NCBI RefSeq assembly: GCF_016612505.1 | Contig: NZ_JAENRR010000004.1 | Span: 62,001-126,000, forward strand | Reading direction: 5' to 3' | DNA from: Carboxylicivirga marina | GTDB taxonomy: Bacteria; Bacteroidota; Bacteroidia; Bacteroidales; Marinilabiliaceae | Length of the DNA stretch: 64,000 nucleotides | Part shown: piece by piece, positions 1 through 21,364 of the stretch | Numbering within the stretch: the first letter of the stretch is position 1 | How the letters are laid out: each line of letters opens with the position of its first letter | Translations under genes and position numbers: made by a program | Notes under the pieces: model-generated | What the model was told of the DNA's origin: nothing | Databases searched by the model: none | What the model saw: the letters and a program-made list of their open reading frames with translations, nothing else

Positions 1-345
1 GTCACTCTTCTTGACATTAAAATAACCAACACTCACCACCACTTCATCTAGTTCTGATATCTCAGGTTCGATATGAATAGTCAAATTTGTTTCATCTCCA
101 ACGACAACTTCTTTGGTTTTCATCCCAATAAATGAGAATACCAATACATCTGCCTTTTTTACCCTGATATTAAACTCTCCTGAGTTACCACTAATGGTTC
201 CATTGGTGGTGCCCTTGATGTAAACTGTTACACCAGGAAGCGGTTCATTGGTTTCCTTGTCCAATACCTTTCCTGTAATACTAAGTTCTTGAGCCATTAG
301 ACTTATTGGCACCAAGAATAGTAATAACATTAGAAATTTTTTCAT
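1..345 (-). CDS. SusC/RagA-like TonB-dependent outer-membrane receptor, N-terminal part (runs off left edge)
   Basis: Only the first 115 codons are inside the window; the gene continues past position 1. The start is an ATG followed by a signal peptide (MKKFLMLLLFLVPISLMAQ). Next comes a carboxypeptidase-D-like plug extension with the usual motifs: GKVLDKETNEPLPGVTVYIKG, a GEFNI turn and VFSFIGMKTKEV. It ends in a TonB-box-like stretch (LDEVVVSVGYF). This order is that of SusC-family receptors, which import oligosaccharides across the outer membrane with a SusD partner. The start lies 15 nt after the stop of the preceding minus-strand gene, so the receptor appears to be the distal gene of the same operon as the three NWEGDW proteins. 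The SusD gene, if present, must lie beyond the left edge. Confidence 0.85.
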   Translation of the reverse strand, partial: MKKFLMLLLFLVPISLMAQELSITGKVLDKETNEPLPGVTVYIKGTTNGTISGNSGEFNIRVKKADVLVFSFIGMKTKEVVVGDETNLTIHIEPEISELDEVVVSVGYFNVKKSD

Positions 346-360: not shown

Positions 361-2775
361 TTACTGTTTTATAAATTTTAACACTGCCGACTTCTGCCCA
401 TCTGTAACTCTCATTACATAGGTACCAACAGGCAATCGACTCAGGTCAATTAACTCACTATTATAATTCGTATAAGATTCTATTAATTGTCCCCTAAGTG
501 AGTATATGCTCAGGCTGGCATTTTTTAGCCCATTCACCTTTGCTAAATCACTTACCGGGTTAGGAGTAATTTGATAGGATAATTTATCCGGCTCAAAATT
601 AATAACGTTAGTTGTTGTATCAAATTGTTCCATTAAAAATTCGGCTGCATGCCCCCATGAACCATCCGGTTCAATAAGCCACTTTCCGTCCATCCATTCA
701 TAGAGGAAGTCGGTTTCATACTCCACACCTTTTTGCCAGGTAAAACCATCGGGTGCACCCTGCTGACCAGAACAATATAAATTCCACAGGTAGAAGTATG
801 GCAAATCCATGGCTAAAGCCAAACCACACAGTTTATCATACTTGGTGCGAATCTGTGAACGACTATGGCTTGAAAAGGGAGCATTTTCATTAATGGCAAA
901 TTCACCTATCTGAACCGATAAGTCACCATACTGCCCGGTTTCTGTCGTATAGTAATTAACCATCTCAAGCCCTGTCCACATTGCAGACGGAAACGGATAA
1001 TCGTTGTTTTCCCATCCACCGTCGTAGGCCGACCAGGATGCCAGATCAATACGGCAATGCGGTATCACATCCGCTGCCAGGCAAGGAGTGTTATTATCCA
1101 TCATGGTTAAGCGATTACCGTTATCATCTTTCATCCATAACTTATTAAACTCAATCCCATGCATCACCCTTGCTGTGGCATCCGGAAATTCATTACGTGC
1201 ACGTTCTGTTCCTCGTTGACGAGCCCTGAACATACGTGCCATTCCTGCAATCGTCCATTCTACATCATCAGGTATCAATGTTGGATCTTTCTCCCATAGA
1301 ACTCCCTGCCCACGTAACATCCAGTCGCCTTCCCAATTCTGATAGACGAAGGTTTTATCTAAATGCCCATAGTTTTCCAATAGCTTGGCTGTTAATTCGT
1401 ACCATTGTTGTTCCTCATCCACATAAGAAGCATGCTGAAAATCGGGTCCATCTTTATAGTCCCCTTTATTTTTTGAGGTTACCCAGAAAGTATGCGTCTT
1501 GATATTCGAGCGACTATATAAATCCTTTATCTCCGGCACATCTAACAATTCCACCACCCGGTTGACATTGCTCCAGCTATGATTAAAGGGGTAGGCAGAG
1601 CTCATCTTACCATTAATAGCGCTCAAAGTTGTTTTAATAGCCGTTGAACCAAACTCTTCATAGTAATCCAAGCCTTCGGTCATAAAAGGCTTATCGGTGA
1701 AATGATACCACCCGGCAATGTGCGAAGCACCAAATATATCGCGCAGCTTAGCCTTTTCGTTGTTCACAGATGGCTTGTACTGATTGACCAGGTTCACTAT
1801 TTCAGATGCAGGTGTCAATGTTTCACTGTAGTGATAACGGACTTCTCCATTGTTCTGAAGACTAAAATTCGGGTTATCCAGCGTCAGGTTAGTAAAATTA
1901 ACCCCTTCGCCCAAACGCAACAAACCGTTCTCTTGAATATTGAGTGTAAATCCAGCTGCTTCGGCCTTTTTATTCAGATTACCATTATTAATCATTTGAG
2001 TGTAAATGCTACCCCCATCATTAATGGTGATAGAAGAACTTTCTCCAGCCGTTGTATTCTTAGTAAATAAACTCAAGTCCTTACAAACAATTAAACCATT
2101 TACCTGTAAATCAGCTTTTCCACTAACAGAGCTCCATTGGTAGGTACTACCTGTTAAACCAAGCGTCCCTTTAACATTGATATAGGAGTATCGATACGTA
2201 GTAACAGTTACTCGGTCATCCGACTTCACCACCAGATTCTCATCAGTTACCAGATTATACAAGTCAATCATCACATTTTTCTCACCACTGTCGCTGAATA
2301 TATTTAATGTTTGGGGATGAAAATAACCCTTACCGGTTATGTAAGTTGTGGCATCCTGCAGGTTCAAATAGATGCGACTGTTGTAGGTATACAATGAACC
2401 GTCGCCCGAACTACCCGGTTGCACACGGCCAGCCGAGAAGGTTCCCTGGCACTCAATACTACCATTGATTACCAAATCTTTGGCAAAGTTATCGGTGTTA
2501 TGCCCTATACTCAATCGAGCAGTCTGTTTCACTTTCAGATGACGACACAGTACCACTCGTTCTCCGGATACACTTCCCTGCACATCGATGTAAACCGAAT
2601 GGTTATTCTCAATTCTGACATCATCAGAACCAGTTGGCACACGTCCTGTAGACCAAAGACTAGGGTCGGACCAATTTCCACTCTTAACAGAGTAGATAGC
2701 ACCGGAAAAGTCTATCTGCGCACTAATATTTAGCGCACAGAATAAACCTATTATTATGTATAAAATCTTCTTCAT
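361..2775 (-). CDS. Secreted NWEGDW-family protein with N-terminal beta-rich module and T9SS sorting domain (candidate glycoside hydrolase)
   Basis: This 804-residue protein begins with a signal peptide (about residues 1-20). Residues 25-60 resemble the start of a G8-type module (SGNWSDPSLWSTG, then a P and a DVRI strand), and a repetitive beta-rich region runs to about 315. Residues 345-715 align by eye with the two downstream-strand neighbours: NWEGDW at 480-485, a RQ helix near 519, a Glu in HGIEFN at E542, and IGEF at E625. The last 70 residues form a type A type IX secretion sorting domain (ITPNPVSD, SIYSLRGQLI, LPVGTYVMRV). It should therefore be exported through the T9SS and surface-bound or released. 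Two glutamates on successive barrel strands suggest a clan A-like retaining hydrolase, but this is inference and I assign no known family. Confidence 0.75.
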   Translation of the reverse strand: MKKILYIIIGLFCALNISAQIDFSGAIYSVKSGNWSDPSLWSTGRVPTGSDDVRIENNHSVYIDVQGSVSGERVVLCRHLKVKQTARLSIGHNTDNFAKDLVINGSIECQGTFSAGRVQPGSSGDGSLYTYNSRIYLNLQDATTYITGKGYFHPQTLNIFSDSGEKNVMIDLYNLVTDENLVVKSDDRVTVTTYRYSYINVKGTLGLTGSTYQWSSVSGKADLQVNGLIVCKDLSLFTKNTTAGESSSITINDGGSIYTQMINNGNLNKKAEAAGFTLNIQENGLLRLGEGVNFTNLTLDNPNFSLQNNGEVRYHYSETLTPASEIVNLVNQYKPSVNNEKAKLRDIFGASHIAGWYHFTDKPFMTEGLDYYEEFGSTAIKTTLSAINGKMSSAYPFNHSWSNVNRVVELLDVPEIKDLYSRSNIKTHTFWVTSKNKGDYKDGPDFQHASYVDEEQQWYELTAKLLENYGHLDKTFVYQNWEGDWMLRGQGVLWEKDPTLIPDDVEWTIAGMARMFRARQRGTERARNEFPDATARVMHGIEFNKLWMKDDNGNRLTMMDNNTPCLAADVIPHCRIDLASWSAYDGGWENNDYPFPSAMWTGLEMVNYYTTETGQYGDLSVQIGEFAINENAPFSSHSRSQIRTKYDKLCGLALAMDLPYFYLWNLYCSGQQGAPDGFTWQKGVEYETDFLYEWMDGKWLIEPDGSWGHAAEFLMEQFDTTTNVINFEPDKLSYQITPNPVSDLAKVNGLKNASLSIYSLRGQLIESYTNYNSELIDLSRLPVGTYVMRVTDGQKSAVLKFIKQ

Positions 2776-2790
2776 AAACCTTTCTGGTGT

Positions 2791-3999
2791 TTAAAGCTTA
2801 CCCAGCACTTCAATCCCTTTCTTTTTGAAAACCTCATATTCTGGATATACTTTGTGTTCCTTTTTATAGACTTTCAGGAACTCATTCATCTCTGCATAGA
2901 AATTCTGGTGCAGATAGTAAACCGGCTTTTTCTTACCTTCTTCACTAATCAATGACATGCCTTTGGATACACCTGCTTTGGTATATTCATTATTATACAT
3001 CTCCCAATGCAAGGCAAAAGGTAAATCCAAATCCAGACTGACACGCATCATTCGCTTAGTCAGGAAGTGCTGCTTATCATCATCTTGCTTTTTATTAGTC
3101 TGATAACCATACTCGCCAATATACACACGACGTTTAAATGGGATGCCTTCTTTGGCCGGCAACTTACTTTCAATATAATCCATCGTCTCACTAACTGCCT
3201 TTTTCAAATCCTCGTAGGTTTCTTTCTTTTTGATGATTTCATAACTGGAGTAAGACACCAAATCCGGATTGGTGTGCGGCAGTACGCTATTAACAATGCA
3301 CTTTTCATCCTGAATGCCTTTCAGCACCAGGTTTAACTCGATATAGTGCCACAGCTCCACATCTTCGTGAGGCGTATCTCTTTTAGCATCATCCACAGCA
3401 ATCTGACGAATATTAAACCAGTCAATCATGCCCTGAATGCGCTCGTCAGCAGGAATGCTTTTCCTGTCGTAGCCCGAATGCAATAGCCAATCGCCTTCCC
3501 AGTTACCCCATAAGAATGTTTTACCGGAACCACTGTATTTTTTCAATACATAGGCAGTTAAATCGTACATCTCACGGTATAGCATCATCTTCTCTTCAGA
3601 TGTCAAGCCATCCTGCCATTTGGCCTCAGTAAAGGTATGCACCCAGGCGAAGATGTATTTAAAATCCATGTCCATCACCGCCTGGTAATCCTTCTTCTTC
3701 TTAATGAGATCAAGTGTTGTATGAATACCCTGAGCCGGTTTCATGCCATAAGATTTGGCATAGTTTTTACCCATTGAGATCTTCAGAATATTGGAGCCCA
3801 TGCCACGAACATGTTTGGCCTGTTCAATAATATACGACTCTTTGGTAAACTTGTATTTGGCACCAATCATCTGTGTTCCCACAACAAAGTTGTAGTCCTC
3901 CAATTTAGGTGCTTTATCAAACACTTCGCCTTCCACCTTTTGGGCGGCAAGCTGACCTATTAACGCAAAAGCAATGACTAAAACAACTAAAATTCTCAT
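2791..3999 (-). CDS. Exported NWEGDW-family protein (candidate glycoside hydrolase)
   Basis: The product has 402 residues with an N-terminal signal peptide (about residues 1-20, ending LAAQ) and no sorting domain or lipobox, so a periplasmic location is likely. Motifs shared with both neighbours are NWEGDW at 166-171, a WFNIRQ...DDAKRDT helix at 194-209, YIELN with E221, YIGEYG with E296 and HWEMYNNE at 331-338. E221 and E296 are good candidates for an acid/base and nucleophile pair, being about 75 residues apart and each at the end of a hydrophobic strand. It is separated from the genes on either side by 6 and 15 nt, so cotranscription is likely. No named family was recognised; a TIM-barrel hydrolase is the best guess. 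Confidence 0.75.
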   Translation of the reverse strand: MRILVVLVIAFALIGQLAAQKVEGEVFDKAPKLEDYNFVVGTQMIGAKYKFTKESYIIEQAKHVRGMGSNILKISMGKNYAKSYGMKPAQGIHTTLDLIKKKKDYQAVMDMDFKYIFAWVHTFTEAKWQDGLTSEEKMMLYREMYDLTAYVLKKYSGSGKTFLWGNWEGDWLLHSGYDRKSIPADERIQGMIDWFNIRQIAVDDAKRDTPHEDVELWHYIELNLVLKGIQDEKCIVNSVLPHTNPDLVSYSSYEIIKKKETYEDLKKAVSETMDYIESKLPAKEGIPFKRRVYIGEYGYQTNKKQDDDKQHFLTKRMMRVSLDLDLPFALHWEMYNNEYTKAGVSKGMSLISEEGKKKPVYYLHQNFYAEMNEFLKVYKKEHKVYPEYEVFKKKGIEVLGKL

Positions 4000-4005
4000 A
4001 GCGCT

Positions 4006-5259
4006 TTATTTTAGTGATTTAAAGTTTAATGCCGCTTCCTTAAATGCTGTAAAGGATGGTGCCTCATTATGCTTTTTGTAGTACTTCTCGACAAAACGCT
4101 GACTTTCTTTATAAAATTGATTATGAGTATGCCATATTTTTTGCTTCTTATTCTCATCATCAATCATCCAATAACCAACTTGCTCGCCTGTTTCTTTTTT
4201 AATCTCGTTGTTATACATTTCCCAAAACAGAATAAAAGGCGACTCCCATTCCAATCCGGCTTTTATCACCCACTTGGCACGCTCATCCTGTTTGTCCTCA
4301 CCATGGCTGATAAATGGATTACCATATTCGCCAATCCACACACGCTTACCTTCCGGCAATCCTTCTTTTTCTGGTAAATAAGATTCGATGTAATCCAATG
4401 CTTTTTTCAGCTTTGTATTTAACTCTTCTTCTGTCTTAGGAGGATTAGTCACATCGTAGGTTGAATAAGATACATAATCAGGGTTCACCTCTTTAAGCAC
4501 TGTATTGGTTAATACTTTATCGCCTAAATCAATGCCGCGCTGTATCAGGTTAACCTCCATGTAGTGATAGATTTCAACATTCTCATACTCTGTATCGCGC
4601 TTGGCATCATCAATGGCTTTCTGACGTATTTTAAACCACTTCTCAATACCTGCCAATGTAGCTTCATCAGCCGGCTTGGTGCGGTCGTAATGCCAGCGCA
4701 AATGCCAGTCGCCTTCCCAGTTACCCAGGTAGAAGACCTTTCCTGAATTGTTAAATTCTTTAAGCATGTAAGTAGTGAGCTCGTATAATTCATCATACAA
4801 AGCATTGGCATAACATTCTTCGTAACCGCCTATGAACTTAATTTGAGTCGTATCATTTTTCTTTCCAGGAGGTTCTGGCAAGTACTGTGAAAAACCATAT
4901 ACCCAGATGTGATAGTATTTAAAATCCATGTTCAACACTTCTTTCACAGATGGTTCCAGCTGCGCCAGTTTAGTCAAAGATGTAATCTCCTTGTTTTCCG
5001 GCAAACCGTAATTCTCGGTACAGTAACGTGGGTGCATGGAGAACTTCAATAAATTAGAGCCCATGTCTTTTATTTGACGAGCGGTTTCCACCAACATTGA
5101 CTCGTCGGTGAATTTGTATTTCGATCCAACCGTTTGTGTGCTGATTACATAATTGTAATCCGTAATCTCTTTTTGCGGTACATCATCCTTTAACTGACCA
5201 GCAAATGCCCATGCGCTAAGCAACATTACCAGAGGGATAATAAAATAGATAATCTTCAT
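4006..5259 (-). CDS. Exported NWEGDW-family protein (candidate glycoside hydrolase), first gene of the operon
   Basis: The product has 417 residues with a signal peptide (about 1-20, AWAFA). It is the closest relative of the next gene in the operon: both start their mature part with a DYN-[FY]-V strand and continue with MDFKY near 111-115. Shared landmarks are NWEGDW at 180-185, WFKIRQ...DDAKRDT at 208-223, YMEVN with E235, WIGEYG with E311 and FWEMYNNE at 345-352. An extra loop at about 125-150 separates it from its paralogue. It lacks the beta-rich front and T9SS tail of the third member. The arrangement suggests gene duplication with divergence toward different cell locations or chain lengths. 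The catalytic role is inferred from paired glutamates and context. Confidence 0.75.
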   Translation of the reverse strand: MKIIYFIIPLVMLLSAWAFAGQLKDDVPQKEITDYNYVISTQTVGSKYKFTDESMLVETARQIKDMGSNLLKFSMHPRYCTENYGLPENKEITSLTKLAQLEPSVKEVLNMDFKYYHIWVYGFSQYLPEPPGKKNDTTQIKFIGGYEECYANALYDELYELTTYMLKEFNNSGKVFYLGNWEGDWHLRWHYDRTKPADEATLAGIEKWFKIRQKAIDDAKRDTEYENVEIYHYMEVNLIQRGIDLGDKVLTNTVLKEVNPDYVSYSTYDVTNPPKTEEELNTKLKKALDYIESYLPEKEGLPEGKRVWIGEYGNPFISHGEDKQDERAKWVIKAGLEWESPFILFWEMYNNEIKKETGEQVGYWMIDDENKKQKIWHTHNQFYKESQRFVEKYYKKHNEAPSFTAFKEAALNFKSLK

Positions 5260-5598: not shown

Positions 5599-8500
5599 TC
5601 AGCCTTGACTCTCCATAAACTCCTTTGGGGTTTTGCCATGGAATTTTTTGAATACCGTACTAAAATACTTTGGGTCGTGAAATCCAGATTCGTAAGCAAT
5701 ATCAGCAATGCGCATATTCTTACCCGATTTAAATAACTCAACAGCATGGTTAAGTTTAATCTTAATCATCAGGTCAGACGGCGTCATGCCTGTCAGCCCT
5801 TTTAATTTCCTGAACAGGTTAGAACGGCTTAAACCTAGGCGCTCACAAAGCACATCGATTGTAAAGTCCCTGTCCGTCATGTTTTTTTTAATGAGCTGCA
5901 CCGCATTTGAAAGGAATTCTTCATCGGGCGAAACAGCTGTCGTCTTCTTTTCTTCTTCTATATTAGTTACTTGTCCTAATGCCTGACGAGTGCGCAATAG
6001 ATTGTTGATGGTCGCCTTTAATACATCAATGCTAAAAGGCTTCTCTACGTAGGCGTCAGCACCCACTTCCAATCCTTCAACCTTGTCGTCAACACCTATT
6101 AAAGCGGTAATCATCACCACCGGTATGTGACTTGTTTTGAAGTTGCTTTTGATAACCTGGCACAATTCTTTACCATTCATTTGTGGCATCATAACATCGG
6201 TAATGATTAGGTCAGGATTTTTCTCAACGGCCAGCACTAAACCCTCTTTTCCGTTGGGCGCTTCAATAACCCGATAGCTCTTTTCTAACTCGGCTTTAAT
6301 AGTCGCTCTTAAATCGTCGTTATCCTCTACTAACAACACTAATTTATTTTCACCAATAATATCGGATACACTGGTACTGTCGTCGTGGCTCTCTTCAATG
6401 ATTATCTCATCGCCTTTGTAATGACTGGAACCCAATAACAACTCCACTGAAAAGGTAGAACCAATGTTTTCTTTACTTTCCAGATAGATTTTGCCATGGT
6501 GTAATTCCACAATTCGCTTGGCTAACATCAAACCAATGCCCGTACCTGATATACCACTTAGCCGCACATTCTCACCTCTCGAAAACCTTGAAAAAATTTG
6601 CTTTTGCTGCTTCTCTGGCACCCCAAGGCCATTATCAATAAAGTCTATTCTAAGCTTTCCGTCCAGTAGCTTTGTCTCAATTTTAACATGACCTCCTTCT
6701 TCGCCATATTTAATGGCATTGGATATTAAATTATTGAATACGCGACTCATCTTCACTTTATCCACCCACAGGTTAACATCATGAGACGACACTTCCAAAT
6801 CCATCGATTTTTTCTCAAGTAAAGGCTGAAAATCATTGCTTATTGACTTTAGTAGCTTTTGCAAATCAACCTCCTGCACCTTCAGCTTCAGCTTTTGTCG
6901 TTCCGCTTTTTGAAACTCTAACAGTTGAGAGACATATTCATTGAGGTTGCCGGCATTGCGCATAATTAGCCCTACTGCATCTTTACTCTTTCCGTTTTTA
7001 GGCAGTTGCTCAACCAGTAATTGTATCAGTGATATTGGCGTTCGGATATCGTGTGCCACGTTTACAAAGAAACGTATTTTCTCATCGCTAAAACGTTGTT
7101 GTTGCTTAGCCCTGGTGGTAACAATCAACAATAGTAACAGACCAAATGCGAGGAATGCGTAAAGCACAAATGCCCACCATCGCAGCCAAACAGGTTGTAA
7201 AATGGTAATATCTAATCGATACTCGGAATTCAGATATTTCCCATCAGGCGAAATGGCTTTCACAAGCAGTTGGTAATCGCCGGGACTTAGTTTACTATAT
7301 CTGACTTTTCGTTGGTCGGATGACAATAGCGCCTGCTCATCATAGCCAACCAGTTGCCATTCAAAGTTACTTTTTCGCGGTCCATGCAACTCAACCACCT
7401 CAAATGTAAAGGCCAGAGAATTTTGGTTATAAGTTAATTCGACCTCATCGATGTAGTTAATATCTTTCAAAATGGTAGATGAGTCAGGAAGTAAGCCATT
7501 GATTAGAAACTCTGACACTCTTAAGCGCCCCATATTATTATATTCACTTACACTATCAGGATGAAAAACAACTGCCCCATCAGGACCTCCAAAAGCCAAC
7601 TCTCCATTTTTCAATTTAGCGGATGCACCGAAACCAAATTCATTGGCATCAACGCCGTCTTTTGAATCGTAATGCCTGAAGTGTTTCTTATCGATATCCA
7701 ATTTCCAAAGTCCGGTACTAGCGGCCAGCCAAAGATTATTGTCAACATCATCCAACAAAGAATAAACAATGCCAAGTTGCTTATTACTAACGGAACTATG
7801 CTGTTCAACATAGTTGTTATCTAAATCGTACACAAACAAACCTTTGTCATTACCAATCCATAAATTATGCAGGCCATCATAGTAGAGTCCATTAACACCT
7901 GTCAGCACATTGTTTGCTGTTTCTGTTGAGTATGTTAATTTTCGATGACTTCCGTTGCGCTTGTTCAATTCAAATACCCCATTCATGCCGCCAACATAAA
8001 TAATTTCGTCTCCACCTTTCACGAAACATTTGGCACTTCCGACCGGATAGGTTTGATTGAGCTTGCCTGCAACATAACACATAACAGGGCCATCTGTACC
8101 ACCAATCCACAGCTCATCACCATTTGCAAAAGTTGTAAATACCAATTTATGTGGTGGCTTGTCAAGCATTTGCTGCGAAACAGGTAGGCCATTGGCCAGG
8201 TTGAGTTCAATAATTCCTTCTCCGTATGTGCCCAGTAACAAATGCCCCTGGTAATCTGAAAGTGAAAGAACAGGAATACCCGACAAGTCATTGGCCTGAT
8301 TAAAAACCTGCCAATGCTCATCCTTTTTGACACGGCTTAAACCATCCTCGGTGCCAAACCATATATGACCATTCTTATCTTCAAAAATAGACCGAACACT
8401 GTTATTGTGTAAACTGTTTTTCTTGTTCAACACATGTGCGATATTCCGGAATGGTTTATTAGAATTGTAGAGTATGTCAATACCGGTTTCTCCTGATGCA

Positions 8501-9426
8501 AGCCAGTAGGTATTAGCGTCATCAATGTAAATATCATGAACACTATTCTGCCTGATACTATTGATATTATCAGGGTTATGACGAAACTGATATTTCACAC
8601 TCATTGACTTATCAATAACAAATAAACCTAGTCTGTCTACAGCGACCACTGCTTCTCCTTGTTCATTAAAGGCAATGCTTCTTACCGTATTATAAGTGCT
8701 GGATGACTTAAATAATTCTAGCGGATATAAATTATCCTTGTCATCAATAATGATTAAGCCCTTATTCTCAGTACCTACCCACAGCCTCTTTTCAGCATCT
8801 ACATCAAAGTGAATAATATCCATTTGCTCCAATTGAACATCTCTGTCAGTCAGTTTTCCATTTAGGAAGCGAAAAGTGTGAATACCTTTGGATGTGGCCA
8901 GATAAACTTGTCCGTCTTTTGCTTTCAGGTGACGATTATAGCTTAACTCAGGATAAAGGACTTCGCTAAAGCGCTTTGTTGCCATATCAAAAACAAGCAA
9001 GCCATTGAGCATGCCAATTATCATGTAGTTATCTACCAGGCAAGCCGACATAAACTCATGCTCATAGGCCTCCCCTAAAATCACAAAATCATCGTATTCG
9101 TAGCGATATTGATAAATACTCCCCCCCTGGTTAATAACAAACAATTCGCCCTGGTATTTAATGAGTTCAATAACTCTGTTTCCCCACTTATTAGTGGTTT
9201 GACTGAATGAATAGTTACGAATCTCATAACCAGAATGCCTGTTCAAACCATTGGATGTGGCAATCCACATATACCCCAATGAATCCGTTTCAAAGTCGTT
9301 GACATAACCATTACTCAAGCCATCTTCAATACCCAGGTGCTTGATTTCATAAGCATCAGCTGTCTGACCCAAGAGAAACAATGCAAAAAATAACATCGTA
9401 AAACACTTCCCAACTACTACTCTCAT
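5599..9426 (-). CDS. Hybrid two-component system (HTCS) sensor-regulator
   Basis: This 1275-residue protein senses a glycan fragment in the periplasm and activates polysaccharide genes. Order of parts: signal peptide or anchor (1-25), repeated two-component-regulator propeller blades such as GYMWIATSNGLN and GHIWFGTEDGLS (about 30-630), a Y_Y_Y-type domain (about 655-745), one membrane helix (about 746-770), a HisKA domain with H792 in AHDIRTP, a HATPase domain with N903 and the GTGIGLML box, a receiver with acidic pair in LLVEDND and phospho-acceptor D1077, and an AraC-type HTH at about 1183-1272. All phosphorelay residues are present, so it should be functional. It sits between a sulfatase gene and the operon it probably controls. 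The inducer cannot be predicted from sequence. Confidence 0.95.
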   Translation of the reverse strand: MRVVVGKCFTMLFFALFLLGQTADAYEIKHLGIEDGLSNGYVNDFETDSLGYMWIATSNGLNRHSGYEIRNYSFSQTTNKWGNRVIELIKYQGELFVINQGGSIYQYRYEYDDFVILGEAYEHEFMSACLVDNYMIIGMLNGLLVFDMATKRFSEVLYPELSYNRHLKAKDGQVYLATSKGIHTFRFLNGKLTDRDVQLEQMDIIHFDVDAEKRLWVGTENKGLIIIDDKDNLYPLELFKSSSTYNTVRSIAFNEQGEAVVAVDRLGLFVIDKSMSVKYQFRHNPDNINSIRQNSVHDIYIDDANTYWLASGETGIDILYNSNKPFRNIAHVLNKKNSLHNNSVRSIFEDKNGHIWFGTEDGLSRVKKDEHWQVFNQANDLSGIPVLSLSDYQGHLLLGTYGEGIIELNLANGLPVSQQMLDKPPHKLVFTTFANGDELWIGGTDGPVMCYVAGKLNQTYPVGSAKCFVKGGDEIIYVGGMNGVFELNKRNGSHRKLTYSTETANNVLTGVNGLYYDGLHNLWIGNDKGLFVYDLDNNYVEQHSSVSNKQLGIVYSLLDDVDNNLWLAASTGLWKLDIDKKHFRHYDSKDGVDANEFGFGASAKLKNGELAFGGPDGAVVFHPDSVSEYNNMGRLRVSEFLINGLLPDSSTILKDINYIDEVELTYNQNSLAFTFEVVELHGPRKSNFEWQLVGYDEQALLSSDQRKVRYSKLSPGDYQLLVKAISPDGKYLNSEYRLDITILQPVWLRWWAFVLYAFLAFGLLLLLIVTTRAKQQQRFSDEKIRFFVNVAHDIRTPISLIQLLVEQLPKNGKSKDAVGLIMRNAGNLNEYVSQLLEFQKAERQKLKLKVQEVDLQKLLKSISNDFQPLLEKKSMDLEVSSHDVNLWVDKVKMSRVFNNLISNAIKYGEEGGHVKIETKLLDGKLRIDFIDNGLGVPEKQQKQIFSRFSRGENVRLSGISGTGIGLMLAKRIVELHHGKIYLESKENIGSTFSVELLLGSSHYKGDEIIIEESHDDSTSVSDIIGENKLVLLVEDNDDLRATIKAELEKSYRVIEAPNGKEGLVLAVEKNPDLIITDVMMPQMNGKELCQVIKSNFKTSHIPVVMITALIGVDDKVEGLEVGADAYVEKPFSIDVLKATINNLLRTRQALGQVTNIEEEKKTTAVSPDEEFLSNAVQLIKKNMTDRDFTIDVLCERLGLSRSNLFRKLKGLTGMTPSDLMIKIKLNHAVELFKSGKNMRIADIAYESGFHDPKYFSTVFKKFHGKTPKEFMESQG

Positions 9427-9478: not shown

Positions 9479-11014
9479 TTACAGCAAAAACAATTGTGTA
9501 TGACCTTTGGTTGCTCCACTTCGATTTTTATGGCGTTTCCATTGTAACTTCTCCGAACGATGAATTGATTTTTGTTCTTCCTCTTGCATCCATTTATTCA
9601 GTGCATCCTTATCATGTCGGACCCTAAAAGCCGGCAACACGTAATCATTTGTTGCCTGCATTTGCTTCATCAATTCTTTTCTCAATTGCTCTGCAACAGT
9701 CTGATAATTGGGATCGTTAATCAGGTTATTTAAGGCATCCGGGTCTTTTTCATAATCATACAGCTCTTCCACACTACGATATACCCAATGCTCAAGACGT
9801 TCTTTTACAGCTGGTTTAGAAGCAGACTGAGCTTTCATGTACTTGTGTGTTGCATAGGAATCGGCCGAACACTTAAAAGGATATTGACCGGTGGCCCATG
9901 CATTAAAAACATAGCCATATTTCTTACTCAAAACCGTACGAGACGGTCGAGGTATTCCCCCTGCGTTTTCATCAAACTGACCGAATACATATTCCGAGCT
10001 TGACACCGCCTTGCCTTGCAGAGCTTTGTGAAAAGATAATCCCTCCATACCAGAAGGCATTTTCACCCCTGACATATCTAATACGGTTGGCATAAAGTCA
10101 ACAGCCGAAATAAGGTTATCCGTATTGACAGAACCGGCTTCTATATGATTTGGCCATGATACAATCCATGGAGTCCGAATACCATTGGGATAAACAGATG
10201 ACTTGGCAAAAGGTAGCGGCATACCATGGTCCGATACGAAAATCACAATGGTATTTTCTTTGTATTCACTCTTTGCCAAAACCTTGAGAATTGCACCAAC
10301 ACAATCATCTCCACGCTTCACTGAGTTGAAATAATTAAGCACTTCATTTTTAACCATGGGTGCATCTGGTAAAAAAGCTGGCACATCCACCTCTTCTTCC
10401 TTGTATATTTTGGAAGGTTTAAACGCATCGAAGCCCTGCTTTTTTGATTTGAGGTCGTTAAAAAAAGGTTTGTGTGGGTCAGCTACGTTTACCACACAAT
10501 AAAAGGGTTGTTTCGCATTTTTAACAGCTATAAAAAAATCTTCTAACTGTTGTCCATAGGATGCGGCCGAACGTTTTTCGGCATCCTTAAACTTAAGATT
10601 GACATCCCAGTATTTAGCAAAATCAGGACTCAGACTGCTATCAGCTGCCTTATTGATAACACCAGTGGTGTAGCCATTCTCTTTTAGTAGTTCAGGTAAG
10701 GTCTTAAAACCCGCATCCACATAAAAGAATCCACGCATCCCACTTTGATGCGGATAGCGACTAGTTTGGAATACACTACGTGAAGGTGAACAGTTTGAAG
10801 CTTGTACGTAAGCATGTTCAAAGCGCAATCCACTCTCTGCCAATCGGTCAATATTGGGTGTTATATCCGGAATATCACAGCCATAGGCTCCAATCGAGTT
10901 CCAGTTCATATCGTCCACAGTGATGAACAAAACATTAGGTTTGATTTTAGACGACGCATTGGTTATTAAACTAAATGCGCATAAAAGAACTGTGATAATA
11001 TAGATTCGCTGCAT
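9479..11014 (-). CDS. Formylglycine-dependent sulfatase (family S1)
   Basis: The product is 511 residues with a signal peptide (about 1-20), so it acts in the periplasm or at the surface. It removes sulfate esters (or N-sulfate) from a glycan. The metal-binding start VLFITVDDMN (D34, D35) and the sulfatase signature with C75 in NCSPSR are intact; C75 is the residue converted to formylglycine by a separate maturase, not seen here. A later VSDHGM motif supplies further metal ligands, and the C-terminal DYEKDPDALNNL block is typical. The general look is nearest to the sulfamidase-like subgroup, but that is a weak impression. It lies 52 nt upstream of the HTCS on the same strand and diverges from the esterase gene. 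Confidence 0.92.
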   Translation of the reverse strand: MQRIYIITVLLCAFSLITNASSKIKPNVLFITVDDMNWNSIGAYGCDIPDITPNIDRLAESGLRFEHAYVQASNCSPSRSVFQTSRYPHQSGMRGFFYVDAGFKTLPELLKENGYTTGVINKAADSSLSPDFAKYWDVNLKFKDAEKRSAASYGQQLEDFFIAVKNAKQPFYCVVNVADPHKPFFNDLKSKKQGFDAFKPSKIYKEEEVDVPAFLPDAPMVKNEVLNYFNSVKRGDDCVGAILKVLAKSEYKENTIVIFVSDHGMPLPFAKSSVYPNGIRTPWIVSWPNHIEAGSVNTDNLISAVDFMPTVLDMSGVKMPSGMEGLSFHKALQGKAVSSSEYVFGQFDENAGGIPRPSRTVLSKKYGYVFNAWATGQYPFKCSADSYATHKYMKAQSASKPAVKERLEHWVYRSVEELYDYEKDPDALNNLINDPNYQTVAEQLRKELMKQMQATNDYVLPAFRVRHDKDALNKWMQEEEQKSIHRSEKLQWKRHKNRSGATKGHTQLFLL

Positions 11015-11219: not shown

Positions 11220-12125
11220 ATGAAGTATTTACCTATTTATTTCACGTGCATTGGCCTGACGTTTATCTTCACCCTCAATGCCTGTGATAAAAATGCAGAC
11301 CAAGCAAATACTGAAGCGGAAGTACCTGTGGTACCTCCCAATAATGAAAACAAAGATAAAATCGCTGACTATGCAGACATTGAAAACCTCCCTAAGGATA
11401 TCGGGGGCGAACAAATTGCCCATCTAAAAGGTAGCACAGCAGCAAGCTATGGCTACTATGCCTATACACCATCAGCCTATCATCAGGGAACAGAGCAATA
11501 CCCATTGATAATATCCCTGCATGGAGCCGGGAAACGAGGTGATGGCACTAATCTTGATGACCTGAAAAAAGTATTGTGGCTGGGGCCGGGCAACTTGATA
11601 AAGAAAGGTGAATGGTCACCATCCTATCCAGCCATTGTAATTGCACCAATAACATCAACGAACTGGGAACCTAATAAAGTACAGACGTTCATTCAATATT
11701 TAATAGATACCTACAGGGTAAATGAGCAACGCATCTACCTAACCGGCAATAGCATGGGAGGCTTCGGCACCTGGAGCTATATTCAGGAATATGGTGAGGA
11801 CGCCTTGGTAGCGGCTATCGTGCCTATTTGCGGTAAGGGTAACCCTGATTTAGCTCATCAGTTTACCAATATCCCCGTATGGGCTTTTCATGGTGTGGAT
11901 GACAAAACAGTGGATGTTTATGGCAGTATTAATATGGTAAAAGCGATAAAAGCCCTAGAAGCTGACATCACCTATACGCCCAAATTAACGCTCTATCCTA
12001 ATGTAGGGCACGATTGCTGGACAATGACTTACGATGGCTCCGGCATGGGACAGGGTAATCCGAACTTTGATGCTTTTGACATGAGCATTTACGATTGGTT
12101 GTTCAGGTATAAAAAGAGCAAATAG
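11220..12125 (+). CDS. Lipoprotein alpha/beta-hydrolase (carbohydrate-esterase-like)
   Basis: This 301-residue protein has a lipobox (TLNAC, C22), so it should be a membrane-anchored lipoprotein. After a low-complexity acidic linker it shows a serine-hydrolase fold: an oxyanion-strand HGAGKRGDG at 101-109, the nucleophile elbow GNSMGG with S178, an acid in HGVDD (D227 or D228) and H264 in GHDCW. The layout is that of the polyhydroxybutyrate-depolymerase/feruloyl-esterase-like peptidases and esterases found in polysaccharide loci. In this setting it probably removes acetyl or other acyl groups from the glycan. It is 70 nt ahead of a sulfatase gene on the same strand, so the two may be cotranscribed. 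Substrate is unknown. Confidence 0.85.
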   Translation: MKYLPIYFTCIGLTFIFTLNACDKNADQANTEAEVPVVPPNNENKDKIADYADIENLPKDIGGEQIAHLKGSTAASYGYYAYTPSAYHQGTEQYPLIISLHGAGKRGDGTNLDDLKKVLWLGPGNLIKKGEWSPSYPAIVIAPITSTNWEPNKVQTFIQYLIDTYRVNEQRIYLTGNSMGGFGTWSYIQEYGEDALVAAIVPICGKGNPDLAHQFTNIPVWAFHGVDDKTVDVYGSINMVKAIKALEADITYTPKLTLYPNVGHDCWTMTYDGSGMGQGNPNFDAFDMSIYDWLFRYKKSK

Positions 12126-12195: not shown

Positions 12196-13764
12196 ATGAA
12201 TAACAAATCAACAACCAGTATAGCACTAATCCTATTGGTTCTGATTACTGCCTGTCATTCCCCAAAGGAACAACAAAAGCAAGCTAATGTATTGGTAATT
12301 ATGTGCGATCAGTTGAACTATAAAGCATTAAGTTGCTATGGTGGCCCTGTGTCAACACCAAATATCGATCGCATTGCAGCTGAAGGAGTCAGGTTTACCA
12401 GAGCTTATAGCACTACTCCGTTTTGCTCACCTTCACGTGCCTCTATTGTAACCGGACTTTATCCACATCAGCATGGCGTCGTTCATAATATGGGTTTCAA
12501 GCAAAAAGAAGGCATCTCTATAAATGATGAGACAACAGGGAAACTGTTGAGTAGTAAAGGGTATTCTACCCATCAATATGGGAAATGGCATGTGGAGAGT
12601 GATTCACTAAATTATTTGCCTTACTATACCGACCAGTATGACTATGGCTACCAATACAGAAAAGAAATGGAAGACCTGGGCATTACGCTTCGAAAAGAAG
12701 ATGGTCAGGATTGGATGAATTTTTATAATCAGTTCTGGCCAGTTGAGGTAACGCCTTACATGAAAGAAAAAAGGAGCTATCTGGAAAAAATATGGAGTGA
12801 CCATACCAACAAGGACTTTCCAATTAAGATGGGACGTTTGAGGTTAAAGCCTGAAGAGTGGATTGATGATAAATTGACCAACCTGACAGTTGAGCAAATA
12901 AGAGATGCGGCTACCCAAAACACACCATTTATGATTACAACATCTTTCATCTGGCCACATGATCCGAACTTTCTGCCTGATCCTTATTATAGCCAGATTA
13001 GCCCGGATTCGATGGATATCCCCTCAAGCAAAACACCCGAACTGAAATTTGAAAAGTCATGGTCGAGAAGAATGGTGAAAGGCTATGGCGATGAAGGCCT
13101 CAAAGAATTCCTTCGTATTTATTATGGTGCAGTCAAATACCTTGATGACAGAGTAGGTAGGATATTGGCGGAACTGGAGAAACAAGGCGTATTGGATGAA
13201 ACCCTTATCATCTTCACTTCAGACCATGGTGATATGATGGGAGGCCACGGCATGGTATGGAAGGTCAACGAATCGTTTTACGAAGAACAGGCGGCCATCC
13301 CTTTCATGATCCGTTACCCTAAGCTACTACAAGCTGCAGTGTCAGACATTCCTGTCAGCCTTATTGACATGAAACCAACCATATTATCGGCGACCGGAAC
13401 CAAATATGAACAAAATGTAGCTGGAGTGAATCTGATTCCTTTCCTAACTGGAGAAAAGGATAAATCATTGGCTCCTAAATACTCATTTTGTGAGCGAATA
13501 AAACCTAATCCACAAGGTAGTCGCGAGGTGCTGGAAGACGCCAAAGGGTCGTTTATGGTTCGTAATGAGCAATTCAAATTAATCATTTACCATGATGGAG
13601 ATCGCTACTTATATGATTTGAATAATGACCCGCATGAAACGGAAAATATTATAAATGACAGCGCTTATAAAGAGCAAATTCTTGAGCTGGAGAATGCCTT
13701 GCAGAATTGGTTAGATGAGACAGGCTGGAAAGGAAAGAAAGTCGAGTACATGTACAAATCTTAA
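12196..13764 (+). CDS. Lipoprotein sulfatase (family S1)
   Basis: The product has 522 residues with a lipobox (LLVLITAC, C20) that predicts a lipoprotein. The sulfatase core begins VLVIMCDQLN, where D38 and Q39 are metal-site residues in the D-Q variant common in the family. The signature FCSPSRASIVTG places the formylglycine precursor at C77, followed by GLYPHQHG. A TSDHGDMMGGHG block and an ending with LYDLNNDPHETENI are also typical. It differs clearly in sequence and length of insertions from the other two sulfatases here, which suggests different sulfate positions. It appears to be the second gene of a two-gene plus-strand unit with the esterase and is followed by a terminator. Confidence 0.92.
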   Translation: MNNKSTTSIALILLVLITACHSPKEQQKQANVLVIMCDQLNYKALSCYGGPVSTPNIDRIAAEGVRFTRAYSTTPFCSPSRASIVTGLYPHQHGVVHNMGFKQKEGISINDETTGKLLSSKGYSTHQYGKWHVESDSLNYLPYYTDQYDYGYQYRKEMEDLGITLRKEDGQDWMNFYNQFWPVEVTPYMKEKRSYLEKIWSDHTNKDFPIKMGRLRLKPEEWIDDKLTNLTVEQIRDAATQNTPFMITTSFIWPHDPNFLPDPYYSQISPDSMDIPSSKTPELKFEKSWSRRMVKGYGDEGLKEFLRIYYGAVKYLDDRVGRILAELEKQGVLDETLIIFTSDHGDMMGGHGMVWKVNESFYEEQAAIPFMIRYPKLLQAAVSDIPVSLIDMKPTILSATGTKYEQNVAGVNLIPFLTGEKDKSLAPKYSFCERIKPNPQGSREVLEDAKGSFMVRNEQFKLIIYHDGDRYLYDLNNDPHETENIINDSAYKEQILELENALQNWLDETGWKGKKVEYMYKS

Positions 13765-14385: not shown

Positions 14386-15861
14386 TTACTTGCTTTTTTT
14401 AGCCGGCTTAACTTGCCTTAACCACCAGTCGCGGTCATGGTTATAGTTATAATGTACTTTCAATTGCTCGATTTCCTGGCGTAACTGAGCTTCCACTTCG
14501 GCATATTCCTTAAGGCCAATCAGGTTAATCATCTCTCCCGGATCGTTTTCCAAGTCATACAGTTCATCAATATCATGGTCTAAGAAACAATCCACCAGCT
14601 TGTACTTATCTGTGCGAACAGCGAGCATATCAGGTCCGGCATAGGGATATTCATCATCCACATAATACTGGAAGAGCATAGATTTACGCCACTCTGCATC
14701 CTTTTGGTGTTTCAACAGATTCACCATTGATTCCCCTTGCATATAATCAGGCTGCTGAACACCGGCTAATTCCAGAATGGTCGGTGCCATATCCACATTC
14801 AGGCATATCTCCTCAATCTGTGTTTCAGCCTGAATCAACTTTGGATAACGAATCAACATCGGTATGCGCATAGAAGCTTCGTAGGCAATACGTTTATCCC
14901 AGTAACCGTGTTCACCCATAAAATAACCATTGTCACTACTATAAATGATAACCGTATTCTCCAACTCTCCCAACTCCTCAAGCGTAGCCATTACTTCACC
15001 TAATGACTCATCAACTGCTTTTAAGGTTTTCAACAGGCGCATAAACTTATCGCCTTTCACCGGCCATTCTTTAATTGGTAATGAATCAACCGGTACATAC
15101 TCCTTCCACTTGGCATCAGCTGCCTTAATGCGCTGCCACTCCGGCTTACCTGCAAAAGTCTCGTTAAGCATGCCATGAGGTGGTTCTGGCAATGCCTCTC
15201 CATCGTATAAACTATCATGGCGAGGTGCTGGTGAATGATCCTCATGCACTGCTTTATGCCAAAGGTTAAGGCTAAAAGGCTTGTCTTTATCACGCTTCTC
15301 TTTTAACCAGGCAATAGCCTTATCCGTTAAAATATCGGTCATATATCCTTTTTCCTGGTATTCACGACCATTATCATTCACTTTTGGATCGAAATAATCA
15401 CCTTGCCCGTTAAAGCTGAACCAATAGTCAAAACCAGGGCGAATGTGCTCAGGCCCTTTTTTGTGTGCCATGTGTATTTTACCCATATGCGCTGTTTGGT
15501 AACCTGCCTCCTGCAACAATTGTGTGTAAGGCCTGAATTGATTCCAGTCTGGATCCACATGCTTATTATTCTGGTTTACACCATGAATATGTGCATAAGT
15601 ACCTGTTAAAAAACTGGCACGCGAAGGTGAGCAGATGGATTGTGTACAAAAGTAGTTCTCAAACAACGCACCCTCTTTGGCTAACCGATCCATATTAGGT
15701 GTTTGTAAGAACGGATAACGTCCGTTAACGCCCAATGCATCGTATGGCTGGTCATCGACCAATATAAACAGGAAGTTGGGTTGCTTAACTTCCTTCTCCG
15801 TCATGCTTGTGCAAGAACCCAGAAGTAAAGCTGCAGATAATATTATTATTAGATTCTTCAT
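14386..15861 (-). CDS. Lipoprotein sulfatase (family S1)
   Basis: The product has 491 residues and a lipobox (LLLGSC, C17). The metal-binding motif is FLFILVDDQPYDALG (D36, D37), and the signature ICSPSRASFLTGTYAH places the formylglycine cysteine at C77. A substrate-side lysine/histidine pair is suggested by MGKIHMAH, and IYSSDNGYFMGEHG supplies the later metal ligands. The C-terminal DLENDPGEMINLIG block is usual for the family. It belongs to a different subgroup from the other two sulfatases, since its VDDQPYDALG start and KRIAYEASMRIPMLIRYP block are distinct. It lies at the end of the GH130-symporter operon, 89 nt after the LRR lipoprotein. Confidence 0.93.
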   Translation of the reverse strand: MKNLIIILSAALLLGSCTSMTEKEVKQPNFLFILVDDQPYDALGVNGRYPFLQTPNMDRLAKEGALFENYFCTQSICSPSRASFLTGTYAHIHGVNQNNKHVDPDWNQFRPYTQLLQEAGYQTAHMGKIHMAHKKGPEHIRPGFDYWFSFNGQGDYFDPKVNDNGREYQEKGYMTDILTDKAIAWLKEKRDKDKPFSLNLWHKAVHEDHSPAPRHDSLYDGEALPEPPHGMLNETFAGKPEWQRIKAADAKWKEYVPVDSLPIKEWPVKGDKFMRLLKTLKAVDESLGEVMATLEELGELENTVIIYSSDNGYFMGEHGYWDKRIAYEASMRIPMLIRYPKLIQAETQIEEICLNVDMAPTILELAGVQQPDYMQGESMVNLLKHQKDAEWRKSMLFQYYVDDEYPYAGPDMLAVRTDKYKLVDCFLDHDIDELYDLENDPGEMINLIGLKEYAEVEAQLRQEIEQLKVHYNYNHDRDWWLRQVKPAKKSK

Positions 15862-16778: not shown

Positions 16779-18413
16779 TTAAAAGAAAATGAAGTACATC
16801 GTGAAACAGGCCATAACTAGTAGTAAGGACAATACTCTAAAGTTCTTGTAAAACACTACATTTTTGAGTTCCTCTGTTTCCTGTTTCCAGATATCAAGTG
16901 TCCAGGTGTTTTGCTTGACCTTATCCTCATCAGGCATGTGACTCATCAAACTAACAATAACATTAACCAATACACTCAACACTAAAATAATTGGTGCTAA
17001 CAATAAAAAGTGAAGCTGAATATCCATACCCAATACATATTTGGTTATCATGATAATGGCAGCTAATAATAAGCCTGACATCAAGCCAGCAAAGGCTCCT
17101 TTTTCATTGGATCGTTTCCAAAACAAGCCCATAAAGAAAGTACCAACAATTGGTGGTGCCAGGTAAGAAGTCACTTCCTGGTAATACGACACCAAAGAAT
17201 CGAACTGCTGAATGATTGGAGCCCAGAATACGGCAAATACCAATACAAGGAATGAGGTGATACGTCCCACCCAAACTAAGCGTTTGCCATTGGCATTGGG
17301 ATGAAAGCGCTTGTAAAAGTCCATGGTGAACAGCGTTGAAACTGAACTGAGCGTAGCACTCAATGTCGATGTCAAAGCCGAAATCATTGCTGCCAGTATA
17401 ATACCAATCAAACCAACCGGCAATAATTTCACTATCATACGCGGATATACCTGATCGGTATTAATGCCGAAGCTGGATTTTAGTATGCTGCCATCAATCA
17501 TATCATAAGGCAAATTCTCTACACCAAACAGGTCGATGCCGCGGGCAATCAAGCCCGGCAAGATGAAAATAAAGATAGTGAACAGGTAAAGGAAACCTAC
17601 AAATAACACACCTTTACGGCCATGGTCGATGGTTTTAGCCGAAAGTACACGCTGCACCATCACCTGGTTGTTAGCCCAGAAATAAAAACCTAAGATGGGG
17701 ATACCTATCCACATGCCTAACCAAGGCACTGTCGGATCACTCATCGGACGTGTTAATTTTAACCACACGCCTTCATTGAAACGTGTGTACAATTCTTCCC
17801 AACCTCCAATGGCATCAAGGGCAAAAAAGTATAATATGGCCGAGCCAATAATTAATACGGCTGCTTGAATCATATCAGCATTAATTGCTGAAGACAAACC
17901 ACCTATAATGGTGTAACTACCAGCCACTGCTGCCATGATGATGATGATTGTAAACAGCTCCATTTCCGGAAATATCAACCTGATGATTAAGGCTCCTGTG
18001 TACAAAGTAGCAGCAGCATCGAGGAATACATTACCAAAAATGGTGATGAATGAGAAGTAATATCTGGATTTCTTATCAAATCGCCTCTCCAAAAATTCAG
18101 GCATGGTAAAAATACCTGACTTGATATAAAACGGTAAAAAGAACAGGGCGAAAAACACCATGACCAATACCGAAATCCAGTTGTAGTTAAAAACGGCTAT
18201 ACCGCTAATGAAACCCTCACCAGAGTGGCCCATAAGAGTAGAGCTGGAAACGCTGGCTGCAAAGAGTGAAAGGCCTATCACCGGCCAGGTCATGCTTCGA
18301 CCTGCCAAAAAATAGGAGTCCGAATCCTGACTCTTGCCATTCTTGAGCGCCCACCAAATGATGCCCACCAAGAAGGTAGCCAGAATAACAATATCTATTG
18401 TACTAATATTCAT
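16779..18413 (-). CDS. Sodium:solute symporter (SSS family)
   Basis: The product has 544 residues and about 13-14 membrane helices spread along its length. The first segment (STIDIVILATFLVGIIWWAL) followed by SDSYFLAGRSMTWPVIGLSLFAASVSSSTLMGHSGEGF is the usual start of SSS/SGLT-type transporters; the SASVSSST-like region contributes to the sodium site. It should import a sugar or sugar acid with sodium across the inner membrane. It is 34 nt downstream of the GH130 gene and immediately followed by the LRR lipoprotein and a sulfatase. This context makes a mono- or oligosaccharide derived from the polysaccharide the likely cargo. Confidence 0.93.
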   Translation of the reverse strand: MNISTIDIVILATFLVGIIWWALKNGKSQDSDSYFLAGRSMTWPVIGLSLFAASVSSSTLMGHSGEGFISGIAVFNYNWISVLVMVFFALFFLPFYIKSGIFTMPEFLERRFDKKSRYYFSFITIFGNVFLDAAATLYTGALIIRLIFPEMELFTIIIIMAAVAGSYTIIGGLSSAINADMIQAAVLIIGSAILYFFALDAIGGWEELYTRFNEGVWLKLTRPMSDPTVPWLGMWIGIPILGFYFWANNQVMVQRVLSAKTIDHGRKGVLFVGFLYLFTIFIFILPGLIARGIDLFGVENLPYDMIDGSILKSSFGINTDQVYPRMIVKLLPVGLIGIILAAMISALTSTLSATLSSVSTLFTMDFYKRFHPNANGKRLVWVGRITSFLVLVFAVFWAPIIQQFDSLVSYYQEVTSYLAPPIVGTFFMGLFWKRSNEKGAFAGLMSGLLLAAIIMITKYVLGMDIQLHFLLLAPIILVLSVLVNVIVSLMSHMPDEDKVKQNTWTLDIWKQETEELKNVVFYKNFRVLSLLLVMACFTMYFIFF

Positions 18414-20473: not shown

Positions 20474-21364
20474 TTAAAATTTAGGGCCAAATCGGCGTTT
20501 CTTGTATTTGAATTTATTCTGTTGCTGTTCATGTAGACTGTGTACATAATCAGGATGGAGCAATTCTGCACCAATCTTCAAGGCATTGAAGGTTCTATAA
20601 TCCAGCTTCTCCATGTTTGAATGTGAGACCTTATGTGCATTGCAATAGAGCTGGTAATTAATTTTGGAATAACTAAACAGTCGGTCAACCTTGGAACCAT
20701 TAAAGCTTAATTCATCCTTTCGAAAAGTTACTCCTTGAATTTCATTCGTTTTACCTTTGTATTTGTAGATAATCGTTATTCCTTTTTCACTTAACTGATT
20801 TTCTAGCCCCTTCCAATCCTTGCATTCTGGGATGGATTGCTTCAGCGCTTCATAGATTTCATATTTGATCTTATCAGCTCCTTTTAATCGATGTGTTTTA
20901 ACCTGTTCTTTTCCTTTAGCCCAATAGAGTTGATGTTGCCGGGTTATTTCCTTGCAGATACGCTCACTTTTTATTCGGTCGTTTTTATCAGAAATGGTTT
21001 TGCCATTGAAATCTACACGGTTAATTATTAGATGAATATGCGGGTGCTCTTTGTCGTAATGTCTGGCAATCAGGTATTGGGTTTCATCAATATTCATTTT
21101 CTCCATATAGGATTTGCCGATTTCTACCATTAACTCATTGGTGAGTTTGGCTTTATCATTGGCCGAAAAGTCCAGTGAAATATGATAGACGGGCTTAGTG
21201 ATGCGTTGATTGAGTTCAACCTGACTTTGAAAACTCTGAATAATGGATTCGGTATCTTTCAAGCGCAAACCATCTGAGCTTAGCAACTCTGTTCCCTTCT
21301 TTTCATCCAGAACATAGTTGACGACTCCTCGAAAACATTTGCCTTTCACAATTTTGGCTATCAT
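20474..21364 (-). CDS. Relaxase / mobilisation nuclease (MobA-type)
   Basis: This 296-residue protein nicks the transfer origin of a mobilisable element and stays bound to the DNA end. The start (MIAKIVKGKCFRGVVNYVLD) contains Y17, a possible nucleophile, and the metal-binding three-histidine motif is intact: H102 in RHYDKEHPHIH, then H107, H109 and H111. A basic C-terminal end (KFKYKKRRFGPKF) fits DNA binding. It is a short relaxase without a helicase or primase part, as in small Bacteroidota mobilisable elements. It begins 1 nt after the mobC stop, so translation is coupled. It needs a helper conjugation system in the same cell. Confidence 0.9.
   Translation of the reverse strand: MIAKIVKGKCFRGVVNYVLDEKKGTELLSSDGLRLKDTESIIQSFQSQVELNQRITKPVYHISLDFSANDKAKLTNELMVEIGKSYMEKMNIDETQYLIARHYDKEHPHIHLIINRVDFNGKTISDKNDRIKSERICKEITRQHQLYWAKGKEQVKTHRLKGADKIKYEIYEALKQSIPECKDWKGLENQLSEKGITIIYKYKGKTNEIQGVTFRKDELSFNGSKVDRLFSYSKINYQLYCNAHKVSHSNMEKLDYRTFNALKIGAELLHPDYVHSLHEQQQNKFKYKKRRFGPKF

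Follow-up and report, generated by a model that had tools for sequence, protein, structure and literature searches.

Three adjacent genes of the marine bacterium Carboxylicivirga marina encode what we consider, with a probability of roughly 0.7, to be a glycosidase family with the fold of glycoside hydrolase (GH) clan GH-A and a pair of glutamates on strands 4 and 7. The genes lie on the minus strand of a 64,000-nucleotide stretch of contig NZ_JAENRR010000004.1 (hereafter the window, whose positions are used throughout). Paralogs A (4006..5259, 417 residues) and B (2791..3999, 402 residues) begin, by eye, with a signal-peptide-like N-terminus in which no lipobox is visible, and paralog C (361..2775, 804 residues) consists of an all-beta domain (residues ~27-320), a catalytic-type barrel (~345-720) and a sorting domain of the type IX secretion system (T9SS; 736-804). 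An original prediction from the DNA letters had described three paralogous open reading frames (ORFs) here, and both its coordinates and the kinship proved exact: in pairwise sequence comparison A and B share 41% identity (E 8e-103), C and B 24% (E 1e-20) and C and A 22% (E 3e-16), with a common domain of about 380 residues. With B as query, the genome contained no further copies beyond these three genes at E <= 0.01. The motifs NWEGDW, H-x-[IM]-E-x-N and IGE, proposed as shared, are present in all three proteins, but DDAKRD is limited to A and B, C reading RQRGTERARNE at that place, and the histidine of the second motif (H218) is kept in 62 of 117 domains across the family.

An AlphaFold model of B, computed from a 68-row alignment, displayed an eight-stranded (beta/alpha)8 barrel of high confidence (pLDDT 94.1, pTM 0.90), with strands ending at approximately residues 43, 76, 120, 165, 222, 251, 297 and 332. 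Using Foldseek, this model matched 227 PDB chains at E <= 0.001, and the 50 matches listed comprise glycosidases of GH39, GH164, GH53, GH5, GH2 and similar families, in agreement with the clan GH-A barrel expected originally. These listed matches are barrel-fold enzymes, mostly of clan GH-A type. The leaders among those listed were the GH39 enzyme PslG (5bx9/4zn2/9g17; E 1.8e-8), a second GH39 entry (5jvk) and GH164 (6t5o and others), both at E 3.9e-8, and GH53 (1ur0; E 3.9e-7). The model of C, based on 15 sequences, has a pLDDT of 79.8 and shows the same strand order. Its N-terminal domain is confidently predicted as all-beta, and its tail is beta-structured too; the barrel dominates among its 50 Foldseek matches listed.

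The position of the conserved glutamates within the barrel was then read from both models, using the numbering of B and an alignment of 117 domains, some of them near-identical. Glu296 (codon 3112..3114, minus strand), the glutamate of IGE, lies within strand 292-297 and ends strand 7, the place predicted for the nucleophile; its counterpart in C, E625, lies within 621-626. Glu168 (codon 3496..3498, minus), within NWEGDW, follows strand 161-165, as E482 of C follows strand 475-479, and stands in an N-W-E motif rather than the clan-typical N-E. Glu221 of the E-x-N motif (codon 3337..3339, minus) had been expected on strand 4 as the acid/base; this placement does not agree with the models, where it ends strand 5 in both proteins (E542 within 536-543 in C). 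Since strand 4 ends in NWEGDW, E168 is the better acid/base candidate. All three residues are invariant (E168 and E221 in 117/117 domains, E296 in the 114/114 domains with a letter at that position), as are W167, G169, D170, N223, S249 and S251 (117/117) and G68, K73, G295 and W332 (114/114), with D246 kept in 116/117.

A forced profile alignment with GH53 (probability 2.8%) places E168 on the glutamate of GNE, E296 on the nucleophile and W332 on the strand-8 tryptophan, residues which in GH53 we take to be the acid/base, the strand-7 nucleophile and the conserved tryptophan, respectively. In the alignment with GH39 (probability 14%) E296 falls on the nucleophile, the strand-4 glutamate being one residue off. 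The spacing of 75 to 85 residues between the glutamates of E-x-N and IGE (76 in A, 75 in B, 83 in C), earlier regarded as a clan A sign, joins strands 5 and 7. Known pairs lie further apart, 111 residues for E165/E276 of PslG (PMC11912335) and 137 for E160/E297 on strands 4 and 7 of the GH164 enzyme Bs164 (PMC7105311); in B, E168 and E296 are 128 residues apart, and E221 and E296 are 75 apart. Based on the strand 4 and 7 positions, the GH53 and GH39 alignments and the GH164 and PslG pairs, we favour E168 as the putative acid/base and E296 as the putative nucleophile, E221 being the less likely acid/base.

As originally noted, the three genes are placed between a hybrid two-component system regulator (HTCS; 5599..9426, minus, recognised by NCBIfam), homologs of which adjoin the cassette in other loci, and a SusC-like receptor. 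The window holds the N-terminus of the latter (1..345, minus; full protein 1081 residues), and its remainder lies outside, in L094, with a SusD homolog and three further sulfatases. The locus is also rich in sulfatases within the window, with S1-type genes at 9479..11014 (minus) and 12196..13764 (plus), identified by NCBIfam and ORF grouping, and at 14386..15861 (minus), identified by sequence grouping with other sulfatases. An esterase-like alpha/beta-hydrolase (11220..12125, plus; NCBIfam) lies among them, and a leucine-rich/receptor-L-domain lipoprotein-like gene (15951-16775) stands between the last sulfatase and a sodium:solute symporter (SSF; 16779..18413, minus). The symporter is followed by a GH130 gene (18448..19461, minus) whose product starts without signal-peptide likeness. 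In the PDB it comes closest to beta-1,2-mannoside phosphorylases, scoring 206 and 177 bits, whereas the top entry named as beta-1,4 reaches 96 bits. GH130 is a beta-mannoside family whose phosphorylases are cytoplasmic and in which one lysine marks beta-1,2 specificity (PMC4599007). GH130 counterparts in other loci carry EDPR or EDAR and, where covered, FPEKIN-like sequences, one of them reading FPEQIG and another FPEKIG.

To place these companions in a wider context, species genomes were scanned with a pattern of NWEGDW or YxFT, giving 202 matches of which 155 were true relatives; the best 80 were kept, corresponding to 78 loci, and all ORFs of at least 150 residues in these loci were grouped. 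With some genomes contributing several loci (L048 and L067 have even one and the same GH130 gene) and many loci cut by contig ends, S1 sulfatases were recognised in 34/78 loci (36 with truncated ORFs), HTCS in 21, GH2 in 14, GH130 in 11, the SSF symporter in nine and ROK kinases in five. Ten Bacteroidota genomes (nine with the full cassette and that of L044 with A and C only) were picked from the 67 loci without GH130; in eight of them GH130 lies 7.2-12.1 kb from the family gene, in one at about 49 kb, and in one on another contig. GH130 is present in all 21 genomes examined with one to seven matches each, so that such nearness would seldom arise by chance; the genomes are, however, related to one another. 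GH5 and GH26 are the usual endo-beta-mannanase families. GH26 occurs in nine of these 21 genomes and GH5 (E <= 1e-10) in 12, in no case less than 20 kb away from a family gene as far as the contigs reach, several of them extending less than 20 kb on one side; the nearest of all is a GH5 domain at 20.4 kb, in the genome of L004 (Carboxylicivirga mesophila, which carries the cassette). The companions, GH130 or a GH2 of beta-mannosidase/exo-glucosaminidase type, together with this lack of nearby GH26 and GH5, lead us to a tentative guess, drawn from the neighbours, that the substrate would be beta-mannosides in a sulfated polysaccharide. The gene cluster as a whole may digest a sulfated, mannose-containing polysaccharide.

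Several observations weigh against the proposed glycosidase family and its substrate. The fold scores are moderate (TM ~0.5, root-mean-square deviation 5-10 Å among the Foldseek matches listed), the profile scores with GH39 and GH53 are low (14% and 2.8%) with the strand-4 glutamate of GH39 out of register, and no member has a known activity. E221 is as invariant as E168 (117/117 both), and the NWEGDW or YxFT pattern used to select loci inflates the invariance of NWEGDW, a motif also found in paralogs adjoining the pattern-selected genes. Two haloarchaeal relatives deviate, one with Gln at position 168 and the other with Ser at 221, both keeping E296. PslG is an endo-beta-glucanase (PMC11912335); therefore the fold neighbours leave the substrate unfixed, and for this reason its fold likeness was dropped as a substrate clue. 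Furthermore, within the stretches covered, sulfatases were unrecognised in 42/78 loci and neither GH130 nor the GH2 was seen in 53/78, many of these loci being cut by contig ends; in an Armatimonadota locus (L051) a GH5-type gene and the family member are about 2 kb apart, and one Bacteroidota locus carries GH116.

The chances are about even that the substrate is something other than a beta-mannoside; a glycan containing glucosamine, glucuronate or galactose would be an example. The GH2 of L021, the single one searched against the PDB, is closer to exo-beta-D-glucosaminidase (226 bits) than to beta-mannosidase (149 bits), and PslG, the best fold match among those listed, acts as stated on beta-glucan. 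Relatives from fen and pond, and two haloarchaeal ones from salt lake and sediment, suggest more than one substrate, and the 53 loci showing neither GH130 nor that GH2 add to this view. On the other hand, GH130 as a beta-mannoside family (PMC4599007) recurs beside the family in two phyla, and the one sphingomonad ROK kinase searched against the PDB is nearest to a ROK-family fructokinase, which is a weak hint at best.

The prediction had also been unable to place the proteins in a named family, and this outcome stands: the family is unassigned, in the sense of Pfam and NCBIfam models and of PDB sequence matches. Scanning A, B and C with either collection gave a single match above cut-off, the T9SS sorting domain of C, all models being below cut-off over the shared domain. 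B found no PDB sequence at E <= 10, C matched PDB sequences via its sorting domain plus one chance match (E 0.35), and a profile of 68 family members gave nothing convincing (best E 1.1). The Pfam scan of the 68 members assigned no family to the shared domain, the commonest match being TatD (3/68, best E 0.002) and the strongest a TIG domain in one member. The all-beta N-terminal domain of C (27-320) also had no family above cut-off, with G8 sub-threshold at E 0.14. Direct membership of GH39, GH53, GH5 and GH26 was rejected for want of Pfam matches: the GH39 model PF01229 did not match A, B or C at E <= 1 or the 68 members, for which families were listed at E <= 0.05, and neither GH53 (PF07745) nor GH5 (PF00150) and GH26 (PF02156) matched A, B, C or the 68 members. 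Searching the PDB with either a single sequence or the profile did not bring up Bs164 of GH164 among the sequence matches at E <= 10. Likeness to TatD DNase (Pfam E 0.087, PDB profile E 1.1) is confined to a segment of about 50 residues that surrounds IGE and continues beyond it, and was rejected, the fold matches listed being glycosidases; two xylanase D matches of the PDB profile (E 3 and 3.9 over 18 positions) were taken as chance.

It is rather unlikely that the family has already been numbered in CAZy outside the coverage of Pfam, NCBIfam and the PDB. Families are still being added to CAZy, for example GH195 (PMC13063451). Against this, the PDB sequence matches are unconvincing, the string NWEGDW is absent from 5.39 million papers searched by text, the papers listed by literature searches contain no account of the family, and plasmid-borne relatives carry the annotation 'hypothetical protein'. 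New clan GH-A families turn up regularly. Annotation of polysaccharide use based on Pfam and NCBIfam would miss the family (for NCBIfam, the three window proteins).

We regard it as unlikely that, within the same fold and reaction, E221 on strand 5 is the acid/base and E168 merely shapes the pocket. This arrangement would agree with the invariance of E221 in 117/117 domains and with the haloarchaeal relative that has Gln at position 168 and keeps E221 and E296. Nevertheless, E221 ends strand 5 in both models and clan GH-A uses strands 4 and 7, as described for GH164 (PMC7105311), and the other haloarchaeal relative has lost E221 while keeping E168 and E296. These two plasmid-borne relatives (L128:5866-7770 and L129:5953-7068), each without one putative catalytic glutamate, are natural variants able to show which glutamate matters. 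Very improbable, finally, is that the barrels act on sugars otherwise, as inverting hydrolase, phosphorylase or transglycosidase: E221, the invariant D170 and D246 permit another catalytic pair, but the glycosidases among the 50 fold matches listed belong to families that are presumably retaining. For two of them retention is stated, GH164 (PMC7105311) and GH39 (PMC11912335). Preferring E168 over E221 makes explicit which mutants to test first.

The relatives are widely but patchily distributed. Named as in their records, they come from Bacteroidota, sphingomonads and other Proteobacteria, Planctomycetes, Verrucomicrobia, Lentisphaerae, Kiritimatiellales, Armatimonadetes, two Legionella and a Haloplasma metagenome-assembled genome, so the family occurs in at least seven bacterial phyla and also in haloarchaea, where three plasmid records, annotated 'hypothetical protein', match. 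In the relatives search 5/60 genomes including the own one (4/59 others) carry it, a sample of 98 further genomes of the phylum has none (99 searched with the own one), and the cassette is present in 4/14 genomes of the genus, the own included. The two Legionella species have a member (L074:7896-8966 and L075:7902-8966) of 36-37% identity, located downstream of a gene resembling transporters, which Pfam assigns to MFS in L074, and neither sulfatase nor GH130 was recognised in the stretch covered at either locus.

In Bacteroidota, the order A-B-C is found in 11/78 loci, plus a twelfth with A cut by the contig end; the HTCS mostly precedes and SusC/SusD follow the cassette, in Marinilabiliaceae and Flavobacteriaceae. 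In a tree of 117 rows (39 labelled), built by a quick method and with several long branches flagged, the labelled A and B rows each fall on one side of a single branch (support 100 and 99), inside which unlabelled rows may also fall. For C, 14/15 rows group together (support 100), two changes being needed with the C-labelled Verrucomicrobiota row L047 elsewhere. None of 500 label shuffles matched the tree's separation of A, B and C. Given the separate branches and the recurring cassette order, the sequences point to A, B and C as old paralogs travelling together.

For the favoured E168/E296 pair, fold and residues suggest that A, B and C would cleave a beta-glycosidic bond with retention, E168 acting as acid/base and E296 as nucleophile. 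Owing to its T9SS tail, C would be displayed at the cell surface and act there. A and B, in view of their signal-peptide-like starts and, by eye, no visible lipobox, would be periplasmic enzymes acting on fragments that SusC/SusD import. The sulfatases would strip sulfate, the SSF symporter would take up short products, and the cytoplasmic GH130 would split short beta-mannosides by phosphorolysis. To our knowledge, no endo-acting beta-1,2-mannanase has been described. In its most specific form, which we hold to be improbable, the family would be the chain-cutting step for a sulfated beta-1,2-linked mannan; C at the surface, A and B in the periplasm, sulfatases and a beta-1,2-mannoside phosphorylase of the cytoplasm would together form the cassette, which integrative islands would spread among marine bacteria.

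The locus is bracketed by signs of integration. A tRNA-Met gene lies at 22757..22831 (minus), and its 3' 43 bases (22757-22799) are repeated about 39 kb away as an exact direct repeat (L094:3333-3375, equal to C151:45733-45775) beside a tyrosine integrase. The interval C151:45733-84799, of about 39 kb, contains the integrase, an AbiEii-type gene with its neighbour, sulfatases, SusC/SusD, the cassette, the HTCS, GH130 and a MobA/VirD2-type relaxase (20474..21364, minus). The right end looks unoccupied in five (G004, G007, G009, G010 and G011) of the 13 further genomes from the genus: there the 38-59 bases just outside the left copy run without a break into the tRNA and the right flank. Genes further left of the left copy have no match in those five genomes, and the left border is less sure. 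As G004 and G010 contain extra repeat copies 17-37 kb away, the tRNA-Met may be a repeated integration target. Judged from sequence, the polysaccharide locus seems to be carried in its entirety by an integrative island in tRNA-Met; the island is perhaps mobilizable and the gene cluster probably mobile, which would explain the presence of the cassette in only 4/14 genomes of the genus. Near the integrase (L094:5589-7288), an AbiEii-type nucleotidyltransferase and its DUF6088 neighbour are arranged like a type IV toxin-antitoxin pair. A second polysaccharide locus adjoins the left repeat on its outer side (L095:325-19999); it comprises a GH2, a sulfatase and a SusC homolog, recognised by ORF grouping, together with a SusD homolog and further enzyme-like ORFs recognised by eye.

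Cleavage of sulfated beta-mannosides, if true, would supply a missing part of marine carbon cycling. For North Sea flavobacteria, the beta-mannan loci shown in PMC6298971 are labelled non-sulfated and all combine GH26 with GH130, whereas here GH130 is accompanied by sulfatases and no GH26 was found nearby. A second comparison is offered by GH195, which with an S1_51 sulfatase acts in Polaribacter on sulfated alpha-1,3-mannan (PMC13063451): like the present family, it is a recent one alongside S1 sulfatases on a mannose polysaccharide. GH195 is described as distantly related to GH99 and alpha-specific (PMC13063451), and by this description it was set apart, the companions here pointing to beta-mannosides.

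Among families of known fold, GH39 shares the barrel, with the best Foldseek values among the matches listed, and its nucleophile pairs with the strand-7 glutamate of B in the profile alignment (14%); it differs in that PF01229 gave no match and in that its strand-4 Asn-Glu is N-W-E here, one residue out of register. GH53, an endo-beta-1,4-galactanase family, shares the barrel, and its strand-4 GNE and strand-7 glutamate align with E168 and E296, although the profile probability is 2.8% and the Pfam GH53 model found no match. The GH164 beta-mannosidase Bs164 shares the barrel and a glutamate pair on strands 4 and 7, 137 residues apart against 128 here; its resemblance is a fold match only, the family having no PDB sequence match to it at E <= 10, and Bs164 comprises three domains and forms a trimer (PMC7105311), in contrast to the single barrel of B.

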